This document shows, one piece after another, positions 20,368 through 27,076 of a stretch of 58,618 bases of DNA (within the stretch, counting starts at the first letter, position 1; every line of letters begins with the position of its first letter). The DNA comes from Phycisphaera sp. (lineage in GTDB: Bacteria; Planctomycetota; Phycisphaerae; Phycisphaerales; Zrk34): assembly GCA_016125285.1 (NCBI GenBank), contig WGMA01000013.1, positions 1-58,618 on the forward strand, in the 5' to 3' direction. The translations under genes and the position numbers were made by a program. The notes below the pieces were generated by a model, which saw only the letters and a program-made list of their open reading frames with translations, did not search any database and was not told the origin of the DNA.

Positions 20368-22275
20368 ATGCGGGCACGAGTGGTTGCGTCAGCGATGTGG
20401 GTGTGTTCCTTCGCGGTTGTCTGCGCGACGAGCGCGGCTTGCGCGGCGCCGAACGACGCGGTGTTTTACGTGGGCGGCGATGGCGATCAACAGTTGCGCT
20501 GTGTGTACGGGCTGTCGGACGGTTCGTTCCTCATCGGCGGCGGGGCGAGCGATCTGGCGTGGCTGCCGGCGTCGACGCCGCGTATCGAACTCGGCGGGGC
20601 ACATCCGAAAAGCGATCCGACGGGCATGACGCCGTTCATCCTGCATCTCTCGGCCGACCTCAAGCCGCTGCGTGTGGTGACGCTGCCGAAGGACTCGGCG
20701 CAGGACGTGAAGTTCATCAAGGCAACCAGCGTGCCGGGCGCGAAGACGGGTGATCTCTACATCTCCGGCACGCGTGACGGCAAGGATCGCGACGGCGGCT
20801 ACTTCGTCGCGCGGCTCGACGGCAACTTCGTCGACGCGCCACCGACGAAACTGACGTGGTGCGTCGACGTCGGCGCGACCGGTCCGCTGCGCGATGATCA
20901 GGCGTGGGACGTGGGGTCCGACGGCAAGGTTGTCTACGCGACGGGCGAGCCGTACAGCTACAACTGGATGGCGGTGCATCGGCTCAAGGCCGACGGCGAG
21001 ATGGACGTCGTGGAGCACTGGCGGACGCACTGGACGGGCGACGGCGAGTGGGCGGGAACGCCCGCGTCGGCCGCGCCGTCGCCGGTGACGTACTCGGGCA
21101 TCGTGCTGAAGATCTGGAAGCGGGGCGACTTTCGGTCGTGGACACGCGAGGACTTTCTCGCGAAGAGCAGCGACGGCAACGGCGGCGAGAAGCAGGGACG
21201 CTGGCCGTTCGACGCGATGTTCCCCGGCTATTACGACCCGGCAAGCAAGGAAACCGTCGACGTCACCGGCACGAAGAAGGGGTACTACGGCTACCGCTGG
21301 GGCACGACGCCCAGCGCCCACGTTGGGACGATCGCGATCGATCGGCGCGACAACCGCATGTACCTCGGCGGCAATAACAAGTCGAAGCTGCCGGACGGCA
21401 AGCCGGACTTCGAGCCGTGGGTGATCGCGATGGATAAGGACGGCCAACTGCTGTGGTGGCAGCGGCTCTATCCGGAGTCGAAGGGCGTGTCGACGCCGGA
21501 TCAGTTCGTCGACGCGCTGACGATCGACTATACCTACCCGTCGAAGTCGGCCGGTTCGCTGGTCGCCGTCGCCCGCGCGCACGGCAACAACGTCAACAAC
21601 TACTGGCAGGGCGACGCGATCAAGCACCCCGACAACCCCGGCAAAGCGTTTCAGAACCAGTTCACCGGCACGCACGGCAACATGCACTTCTCGTGGATCG
21701 GCCGCATGACGCTCGACACCGGCACGATGCTCCACGCGACGTACTTCGCGGAGTTCGGCGAGGGCAACAAGTTCCAGGACAAGCGATTCAGCGACCCGTT
21801 GCTCAAGCGATGGCCGCACTTCCTGGCGGGCTGGCCTGAGCTGAACAGCACGCGTGTCGAGCCGACGGTTCGCACCGACGCGGCGGGCAACGTGTATGTC
21901 GTGGCGAACGGGCGGCGGGTGATCACGACGTCCAACGCCTATCAGCAGATGCCCAGCCCGCTGGAGGACAAGGACGCCAAGGGCGTGTGGTCCGACTTCG
22001 TCCGCGTGTACCGCCCGGACCTGACCGGCCTGTCGTACAGCTCGCTGCTCGTGGGCAAGTGGGACTGGGCGACCGGCGAGGGCGCCAGCCAGGTCGATCT
22101 GACGGGCGTATACCCGACGCCGACCGGCGTGATTGTCGTGGGCACGGCCCCGGTGGACAAGAAGGCCGGCGCCGTGACGGGCAACGATATGCCGACGCAG
22201 AATGTCCCGGACTGGGGCAAAGCGACGCGCACCGGAGCGATGGGCGTGATCGGCGTGTTGAACTTCGCGAAGTAA
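20368..22275 (+). CDS. Secreted protein of unknown function, beta-propeller-like
   Basis: The 635-aa protein starts with a signal peptide (MRARVVASAMWVCSFAVVCA, likely cleaved after ACA). The mature part contains repeated short strands with Gly/Asp turns (LYISGTRDGKDRDGG, MYLGGNNKSKLPDG, NVYVVANGRRVITTSNAYQQ), as in WD/SBBP-type beta-propellers. I do not recognise a catalytic motif. CAGGAG precedes the ATG. The gene stands alone between hpt (divergent) and the purA leader. Confidence 0.6.
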   Translation: MRARVVASAMWVCSFAVVCATSAACAAPNDAVFYVGGDGDQQLRCVYGLSDGSFLIGGGASDLAWLPASTPRIELGGAHPKSDPTGMTPFILHLSADLKPLRVVTLPKDSAQDVKFIKATSVPGAKTGDLYISGTRDGKDRDGGYFVARLDGNFVDAPPTKLTWCVDVGATGPLRDDQAWDVGSDGKVVYATGEPYSYNWMAVHRLKADGEMDVVEHWRTHWTGDGEWAGTPASAAPSPVTYSGIVLKIWKRGDFRSWTREDFLAKSSDGNGGEKQGRWPFDAMFPGYYDPASKETVDVTGTKKGYYGYRWGTTPSAHVGTIAIDRRDNRMYLGGNNKSKLPDGKPDFEPWVIAMDKDGQLLWWQRLYPESKGVSTPDQFVDALTIDYTYPSKSAGSLVAVARAHGNNVNNYWQGDAIKHPDNPGKAFQNQFTGTHGNMHFSWIGRMTLDTGTMLHATYFAEFGEGNKFQDKRFSDPLLKRWPHFLAGWPELNSTRVEPTVRTDAAGNVYVVANGRRVITTSNAYQQMPSPLEDKDAKGVWSDFVRVYRPDLTGLSYSSLLVGKWDWATGEGASQVDLTGVYPTPTGVIVVGTAPVDKKAGAVTGNDMPTQNVPDWGKATRTGAMGVIGVLNFAK

Positions 22276-22297
22276 TACGCGATGCGCCGAAACGACC

Positions 22298-22327
22298 TTG
22301 ATGCGTCGTCGGGCTAGTCGCTATAAT
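22298..22327 (+). promoter_or_regulatory. Promoter of the purA leader
   Basis: TTGATG (22298-22303) and a consensus TATAAT (22322-22327) are separated by 18 bp. Transcription would start near 22334, giving a leader of about 139 nt before purA. Confidence 0.75.
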
Positions 22328-22333
22328 CGACGC

Positions 22334-22472
22334 GAAAATGCGGCAATCATTCCGCGGCGAGTCTTCCCGGCGAAAGTCGGGTGCGGATCACCCCCGTCTG
22401 GGGTAAAAGGCAAAACTCGCCCTCAGCTTCGGCTGAGGGTTTTTTCATGTTTGCGTAAGGAACGGTACTCCG
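22334..22472 (+). promoter_or_regulatory. Structured purA leader RNA, candidate attenuator or riboswitch
   Basis: The leader can fold into a three-way junction. P1 is GGCGAGT (22356-22362) with ACTCGCC (22415-22421). P2 is CCCGGC-GAAA-GTCGGG (22366-22381). P3 is ACCCC-CGTCT-GGGGT (22390-22404). The joining strand J3/1 is A-rich. The last two bases of P1 overlap the first two of a terminator stem (22420-22439). This layout, a compact aptamer-like domain touching an expression platform, is that of a transcriptional riboswitch or attenuator. It does not match any riboswitch consensus I can recall. Confidence 0.5.
22420..22445 (+). terminator. Intrinsic terminator inside the purA leader
   Basis: An 8-bp perfect stem (22420-22427 with 22432-22439) has a TTCG tetraloop and is followed by six T. 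It lies only 27 nt before the purA ATG and after the only visible promoter, so purA expression requires read-through. Confidence 0.88.
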
Positions 22473-23786
<1,314 letters not shown>

Positions 23787-23873
23787 AATGATTGGACGTG
23801 TTCGGCGATTTCGCCGCGTGCGAAACGGTCGACGGATGCAACGCCGGTGGTTCGGTCGGCATACGACTCAGCG

Positions 23874-24680
23874 ATGAACAAGCCCACGGACATCCCGACG
23901 GTCGCCCAGGCGCAGGCGGAAGCCGCGACGGTGGACGTCGCCACGGCGTCGTCGCCGGCGACGCCGGAGCCCGCGCGGCTACCGCGGCACGTGGCGATCA
24001 TCATGGACGGCAACGGCCGCTGGGCCCAGCAGCGCGGCGAGCCGCGCGTGTTCGGCCACAAGCACGGCGCGCAGGTCGTGCACCCGGTCGTCACCCGCTG
24101 CGCCCAGCGCGGCGTCGAGGCGCTGACGCTCTACTCGTTCAGCATGGAGAACTGGAAGCGGCCGGACACCGAGGTCGATTTCCTCATGAGCCTCTGCCGC
24201 CAGTACCTCGAGATCGAGCGGCAGACGATGATGGACAACAACATCCAGTTCGCCCACGTCGGTCGGCGCGACGGGCTGCCGCAGTCCGTGCTCGACATGC
24301 TCGACGAGACCGTCGACGTCACCGCGTCGAACACCGGCATGACGCTCGCCCTCGCGCTGAACTACGGCGCCCGCGCCGAGCTGACCGACGCCGTGCGCGC
24401 GATCGCGCGTGACGTCGCCGCGGGCCGCCTCGACCCCGATGCGATCAACGAGGCCGCGATCGAGCAGCACCTCTACACCGCGGGCCTGCCCGATCCGGAC
24501 TTGCTGATCCGCACGGCGGGTGAGATGCGCGTCAGCAACTTCCTGCTCTGGCAGATCAGCTACGCCGAACTCTGGGTGACCGACACGCTCTGGCCGGACT
24601 TCACGATCGATCATCTCGAGCGGGCGTTCGAGTCGTTCGCCAACCGGCAGCGCCGCTTCGGCGCGATCGCGCCGAAGTAA
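23874..24680 (+). CDS. uppS: (2Z,6E)-polyprenyl diphosphate (undecaprenyl diphosphate) synthase
   Basis: The 268-aa protein elongates FPP to undecaprenyl diphosphate, the lipid carrier of cell-wall synthesis. The catalytic start IIMDGNGRWA (Asp45), SMENWKRP and the C-terminal LIRTAGEMRVSNFLLWQ are cis-prenyltransferase signatures. An Ala/Thr-rich extension of about 37 residues precedes the domain. The start is uncertain: ATG 23874 has only a weak ribosome binding site, and a GTG 27 nt upstream is also open. A TAGAAT at the end of purA may be its -10. Confidence 0.93.
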   Translation: MNKPTDIPTVAQAQAEAATVDVATASSPATPEPARLPRHVAIIMDGNGRWAQQRGEPRVFGHKHGAQVVHPVVTRCAQRGVEALTLYSFSMENWKRPDTEVDFLMSLCRQYLEIERQTMMDNNIQFAHVGRRDGLPQSVLDMLDETVDVTASNTGMTLALALNYGARAELTDAVRAIARDVAAGRLDPDAINEAAIEQHLYTAGLPDPDLLIRTAGEMRVSNFLLWQISYAELWVTDTLWPDFTIDHLERAFESFANRQRRFGAIAPK

Positions 24681-27032: not shown

Positions 27033-27045
27033 GTCTGATCGCGCA

Positions 27046-27076
27046 TGAAAAAACCCACGGACCGAAGCCCGTGGGT
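27046..27076 (-). terminator. Intrinsic terminator of rpsD
   Basis: On the minus strand a 10-bp stem with one G-U pair (27067-27076 with 27053-27062) is closed by TTCG and followed by six T (27048-27053). It also sits just after the cdsA stop, but lacks a T run in that direction. Confidence 0.88.

Follow-up and report, generated by a model that had tools for sequence, protein, structure and literature searches.

Does the DNA in front of purA in this planctomycete encode a regulatory RNA and, if so, of what kind? The window, i.e. the whole stretch of DNA that was analysed, comprises 58,618 nt of a Phycisphaera sp. genome (contig WGMA01000013.1); within it the ORF preceding purA ends at 22275 and purA starts at 22473, with the leader lying between them. 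The first-pass annotation had proposed a new riboswitch or attenuator controlling purA here, and sequence comparison supports the proposal, as the fold is conserved and covarying, is matched by no Rfam family and has a promoter upstream. We conclude that the leader is very probably a structured cis-regulatory RNA of purA, and one that appears to be rare and so far uncatalogued. Its elements are as follows.

22298..22303, + strand: -35 element TTGATG (4 of 6 consensus matches, 18-nt spacer)
22322..22327, + strand: -10 element TATAAT (together with the -35 element 10 of 12 matches, spacer 18)
22349..22356, + strand: 5' flank ATTCCGCG, complementary to the conserved GCGGA, possible alternative helix
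22356..22362, + strand: P1 5' arm GGCGAGT (4 of 7 P1 pairs with two-sided changes)
22366..22381, + strand: P2 hairpin with GAAA loop (arms 22366-22371/22376-22381; two-sided changes in 4 of 5 pairs; loop not conserved)
22382..22384, + strand: P3a 5' arm TGC, pairing with 22410-22412 (UA changed to CG in 2 of 9 members)
22385..22389, + strand: 5' side of the internal loop, GGATC (identical in 11 of 11 members, two of which, OFTM155 and G795, were found with a pattern requiring GGAUC)
22390..22404, + strand: P3b hairpin ACCCC-CGTCT-GGGGT (arms 22390-22394/22400-22404)
22405..22409, + strand: 3' side of the internal loop, AAAAG (second base varies: A, G or U)
22410..22412, + strand: P3a 3' arm GCA, pairing with 22382-22384
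22415..22421, + strand: P1 3' arm ACTCGCC (last 2-3 nt can alternatively form the terminator base)
22419..22440, + strand: terminator hairpin in its full form, including nucleotides shared with P1 (stem with UUCG loop)
22422-22437, + strand: terminator core CTCAGC-TTCG-GCTGAG, directly 3' of P1
22440..22445, + strand: T6 tract of the terminator, followed by CATG, 27 nt before the purA ATG
22473..23786, + strand: purA, adenylosuccinate synthetase (ORF; PF00709 at 573.8 bits)

The consensus promoter claimed earlier is present, and this sigma-70-type site is the sole promoter-like site found in 21500-24500 (shuffle mean 0.2). As it lies upstream of the element, a purA transcription start downstream of the terminator, named at the outset as a possible refutation, is not indicated by the sequence. 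Promoter sites with at least 9 of 12 matches are located 24-34 nt 5' of P1 in 6 of the 11 members (the window and five others).

The leader RNA proper (22356-22445, about 90 nt) consists of P1, P2 and P3, the last of these with a 5x5 internal loop GGAUC/AAAAG, followed by the terminator with its UUCG loop. The seven-pair P1 (22356-22362/22415-22421) and the P2 with a GAAA tetraloop (22366-22381) had both been described correctly. P3 also exists, but its anatomy had been partly misread: the helix has two parts, P3a (TGC/GCA) and P3b (ACCCC/GGGGT), and the supposed A-rich joining strand AAAAG is the 3' side of the P3 internal loop, facing GGATC. Two joining A residues separate P3a from the P1 3' arm, and the terminator begins directly after P1. 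Among members the strand opposite GGAUC reads AAAAG, AGAAG or AUAAG, the P2 and P3b loops differ in both length and sequence, and the first pair of P3b is AU, UA, CG or GU across the alignment of nine and GC in G795. Folding energy by itself is unremarkable (z -1.74; 8 of 200 shuffles fold equally well) and alone would not have revealed the fold, which is established by conservation and covariation.

In an alignment that was fitted to model R2 and so leans towards it (nine copies; CSMAG_2820, below the cut, and G795, found later, are outside the count), 96.7% of 212 pair cells are standard pairs and 13 of 24 pairs show two-sided changes, compared with 4.8 (sd 1.5) in shuffles, 0 of 500 of which reached as high. 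All five helices take part in these changes, and the covariation score is 0.353 vs 0.137 in shuffles and 0.019-0.064 with partners slid by 1-3 columns. In the unfitted first MAFFT alignment, 14 of 28 predicted pairs already had a two-sided change, and the first seven family leaders can be aligned over their whole length, compensatory changes being visible on the initial consensus fold. The covariation of P1-P3 in relatives that had been put forward as a check is present, and the RNA has what is expected of a riboswitch aptamer: a conserved fold, covarying helices and conserved unpaired bases.

Eleven loci were accepted as members: eight from the window's family, the Anaerolineae MAG OFTM155 (= G757), G795 from the same order, and the Planctomycetia MAG CSMAG_2820 (= G254). 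All 11 precede purA, so that the RNA lies, as is typical of riboswitches, in the 5' leader of a gene with related metabolism. Nine of the 41 genomes covered by a DNA search had matches, the window's own genome among them; six further loci (L002-L007) are directly before purA in the same family, and three matches (L008-L010) have no purA. The covariance model added an eighth family member, G007, bringing the leader to 8 of the 9 genomes examined of this family. The ninth, G005 (98% complete), has no leader RNA at its purA in an unfiltered covariance-model scan; at that locus (L113) purA has a different, unrelated leader that carries a ribosome site of its own. Model R3 found the RNA at 0 of the purA loci from 52 genomes of other families of the order (best 11.7 bits; a family member included as positive control scored 87.6 bits), and it is thus no general purA leader in the wider group.

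Scanning one genome per species across 84,980 species with a pattern returned 24 stretches, five of them before purA; the window, G002, G001, G007 and G795 do not match this pattern, so divergent members elsewhere may be missed. Three of the five belong to the family (Planctomycetaceae bacterium ARS64, Phycisphaeraceae bacterium PL25a_bin.124 and Planctomycetales bacterium ZRK34), and the other two are CSMAG_2820, first found with model R1 in genomes of the phylum, and OFTM155. With R1 the three family members scored 118.7, 111.7 and 111.5 bits, OFTM155 61.7 and CSMAG_2820 26.2, and the other 19 stretches at most 17.0 bits. R1 matched 14 of 392 phylum genomes and 6 of 397 class genomes, with only 8 candidates scored per genome, so weak members can be lost. 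Apart from family members and CSMAG_2820, the 11 other matches in these two R1 searches (L014, L015, L017-L025) are without purA and reach at most 17.5 bits with R3; one of them, L014, has 31 bits with R1, above CSMAG_2820. With R3, CSMAG_2820 and G795, neither of which was used in that model, scored 33.0 and 34.5 bits (OFTM155, which was used, 64.4), and compared with the 17.5 bits or less of those 11 candidates this separates homologs without recourse to the purA criterion. A weak R1 match at L125 (14.0 bits, E 0.049) was not repeated by R3.

Pattern searches gave 45 matches, all checked, in 39 of 392 phylum genomes, three of them before purA (G001, G004, G254); 19 matches, all checked, in 249 genomes of the class of OFTM155, two of them before purA (OFTM155 and G795); and 5 matches in 382 class genomes, comprising two family leaders and three stretches without purA. 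The patterns do not match the window's own leader (0 in its genome), hence some true members are missed by these counts. One of the 45 phylum matches, L233, was dropped as its purA is on the other strand. The pattern matches 2 of the 7 genomes examined of the OFTM155 order, and in G795 the leader is about 190 nt before the PF00709 match.

The PurA tree, midpoint-rooted, was built on 78 proteins from 88 loci (seven had no usable protein, two were duplicates and the short G007 was left out, as were the short upstream stretches L141-L169). In the class of OFTM155, 18 of 21 rows form their own branch; OFTM155, G795 and G827 sit within the clade of the window's order (36 rows, support 100/100), and the leader-linked PurA of CSMAG_2820 groups with G003 (support 90/96). 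The leader label requires 4 changes on this tree, against 9.5 in shuffles (0 of 500 as low). The placement of the OFTM155, G795 and CSMAG_2820 copies suggests that purA and its leader moved together. As OFTM155 and G795 are two genomes of one order, binning error is unlikely there. In CSMAG_2820 the leader-linked purA is on the 3.2-kb contig C406 (L200) and another purA on contig C25 (L190); the former groups with the window's family and not with the purA of its own family, and by this placement it is best read as acquired or a contaminant. G827, of the OFTM155 order, has a transferred-type purA after a thioredoxin-like gene (L213), with no leader RNA found there (R3 at most 13.7 bits). Because every homolog falls in one purA lineage, the association with purA is accounted for equally well by descent from a single origin with linked inheritance and by ligand logic.

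The terminator announced as perfect is present as described, with its UUCG loop and six T, 27 nt before purA. Structurally it has the features of an intrinsic terminator, a G+C-rich stem followed by a T tract, of which shuffles of the region contain 1.5 on average. A terminator-like hairpin follows P1-P3 in 9 of 11 loci, with a tract of at least 6 T in all eight family members and an imperfect one in OFTM155 (CTTTGTGTTG). CSMAG_2820 and G795 keep P1-P3 without a U-tract after P1, which indicates that the sensor part is conserved apart from the output. The closing stem had been said to share bases with the terminator; this holds, the terminator in the window being able to take 2-3 nt of P1, and in 9 of 9 loci with such a hairpin the hairpin base can draw on 1-3 nt of the P1 3' arm. 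In constrained folds of these nine loci the P1-complete and terminator-complete states differ by no more than 1.2 kcal/mol; the unconstrained fold of OFTM155 is 8.5 kcal/mol below either aptamer state. G007 has AU for GC at one P1 pair and A for G at the terminator base; by these coupled changes, a triple change that counts as one event, the shared base still pairs in both exclusive states. The whole-leader fold of the window contains P1 (0.97) together with a shortened six-pair terminator. Given the short shared stretch and this predicted coexistence, switching between P1 and the terminator may be weak.

The sequence GG-T6-CATG, found in the window at 22438-22449 (+) and 27044-27055 (-), recurs in family genomes (7 times in the window's own genome, 10 in G001, 27 in G004 and 20 in G006; reversed control 0), with 0 and 1 occurrences in two genomes of other families. 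Among 41 inspected sites (6 of 7 in the window's genome, 20 of 20 in G006 and 15 of 27 in G004) a compact hairpin precedes 36, vs 27 of 205 random positions, and 20 continue as CATGCGC. To judge from these counts it looks like a family-specific terminator tail extending beyond the U-tract, and the purA leader terminator has the tail usual for the window's family. In G007 (L170) the terminator and purA are about 200 nt apart, and this interval holds inverted repeats of the AAGGCACCAAGG / CCTTGGTGCCTTGG type as well as a second ribosome site.

Complementarity of the 5' flank to GCGGA, with P1 boundaries set by hand, was equalled in the window by 18 of 2000 shuffles. It beats most shuffles in 7 of the 8 family members (1 to 56 of 2000 as good), is near chance in G003 (858 of 2000), CSMAG_2820 (646) and G795 (376), and is weak in OFTM155 (119). 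Unconstrained folds of 4 of 9 leaders (the window, G002, G007 and OFTM155) pair the flank with GCGGA in a third structure, and a longer 5' end returns the window fold to P1 (0.97). In partial transcripts ending after GCGGATC, folded from assumed start sites, the flank helix dominates in 5 of 8 leaders. The helix is not dominant in the window, G002 and G003, and the complementarity is at chance in G003; a universal OFF state formed by the flank and GCGGAUC is therefore no more than suggestive.

We suggest that the leader is probably a cis-acting, riboswitch-type transcription attenuator of purA working in the following way. The GGAUC/ANAAG internal loop and the junction would create a binding pocket for some small molecule from the IMP-AMP-GMP node. 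In the ligand-free RNA, the terminator would form at full length and transcription would stop before purA; in most family members, pairing of the 5' flank with the conserved GCGGAUC may hold this state. When ligand is bound, P1 would stay closed, depriving the terminator of the base that adjoins the U-tract, and RNA polymerase would read through. The competing P1 and terminator-base states lie no more than 1.2 kcal/mol apart, and by the logic applied to pfl RNAs in the main text of PMC2864571 such competition would give more read-through when the RNA is held folded; by this analogy we give the ON direction about an even chance. The ligand is a guess among IMP, GTP and adenylates, and our further guess is that an ON switch goes better with a signal of substrate or balance, such as IMP or GTP, than with end-product repression. 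It is conceivable, if somewhat less than an even prospect, that the RNA represents a new riboswitch class tied to purA, binding a nucleotide of the IMP branch point (at a guess IMP, GTP, AMP/ATP or adenylosuccinate) in the GGAUC/ANAAG loop and moving between phyla with purA.

The main rival to small-molecule sensing is a protein partner: the leader could be the binding site of PurA itself or of another RNA-binding regulator, driving the same choice at the terminator with no direct sensing of a small molecule. The conserved internal loop beside the junction would suit recognition by a protein as well, and the purA linkage with its apparent co-transfer fits autogenous control; at the same time, variation of the P2 and P3b loops, in sequence as in length, leaves only a small site, and we regard this explanation as rather unlikely. 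An OFF switch, in which P1-P3 would coexist with the shortened terminator, ligand binding would cause termination and another pairing would give read-through, is suggested by the whole-leader window folds with P1 (0.97) and the six-pair terminator. End-product repression by adenylates is the textbook logic for purA, and an OFF switch agrees with it. However, P1 and the terminator base are mutually exclusive in 9 of 9 loci and no conserved antiterminator pairing was noticed on reading the alignment by eye; we regard this direction as unlikely.

The same hairpin could act on translation, since its 3' arm contains GAGGG, a Shine-Dalgarno sequence 7 nt before an AUG that the hairpin would hide. 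In 5 of 8 family leaders (ZRK34, G004, G002, G008 and G001) this AUG, located 3' of the U-tract, begins a reading frame that continues into purA, and ZRK34 is without another evident purA start; but the frame stops before purA in the window, G003 and G007, and an additional ribosome site with an ATG follows downstream in the window, G003, G001, G008, G002 and G007. As GG-T6-CATG recurs as a general terminator tail across the family, the AUG is demoted as a purA start, and translational control is improbable. That the leader is conserved without a regulatory role, serving RNA stability or as a promoter-proximal terminator setting a fixed level, would fit its rarity, its absence in G005 and folds only modestly more stable than shuffles. 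The unpaired loop bases conserved in 11 of 11 members, combined with covarying helices, point instead to specific recognition and render this last explanation very improbable.

The riboswitch-type attenuator that we favour would act at the IMP branch point, which sets the balance of adenylates and guanylates. With about 90 nt and a covarying fold it is small enough to be probed at once, and it also seems to be a regulatory leader that travelled with purA out of the planctomycetes into genomes whose records are titled Anaerolineae, one of which retains it with a different output part. According to a 2022 ligand review (main text of PMC9971707), riboswitches exist for guanine, adenine, ZTP, PRPP, PRA and xanthine, while one for ATP is still to be found; an RNA with purA as its only known target offers a direct handle on that question. 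Neither purA nor adenylosuccinate occurs in the main texts of PMC9971707, PMC11109978, PMC8632094, PMC2864571 and PMC5912903. None of the literature matches listed describes an RNA or riboswitch in the purA leader; for the 2017 list of 224 candidate RNAs the comparison was made via Rfam only. A weak candidate RNA precedes the gene for FGAM synthase, another purine step (main text of PMC11109978), and the ligands or targets of the PRPP, ppGpp, guanidine-I (ykkC) and PRA (purF motif) riboswitches also lie around purine synthesis (main texts of PMC5912903 and PMC9971707).

The earlier impression that the leader is not a known class agrees with Rfam 15, in which no family reaches its gathering threshold in the window or in nine homologous loci. 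A permissive scan of 22290-22480 to E 10 listed three families at chance level. The best of these sub-threshold matches, the anti-hemB sRNA (RF02837), resembles the leader in having stems and then a terminator; at 14.5 bits against a threshold of 49.5 (E 0.36), and aligned mainly on the terminator, it reads as chance. In the same scan none of the purine (guanine/adenine, RF00167), ZTP (pfl motif, RF01750), PRPP, ppGpp and guanidine-I riboswitches matched, and PRA (purF motif) was absent from the families listed.

Purine riboswitches are three-way junctions closed by P1, as is the purA leader. The two differ in that the conserved bases of the purA leader lie in the P3 internal loop; its P2 and P3 loops vary, so no kissing loops are apparent, unlike in purine riboswitches. 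Adenine riboswitches can activate by disrupting a terminator, according to a title cited in PMC9971707. The ZTP (pfl) riboswitch shares with the purA leader both control of the purine pathway and a terminator overlapping the 3' end of the aptamer; the discoverers of pfl RNAs interpreted terminators with this overlap as ON switches (main text of PMC2864571).
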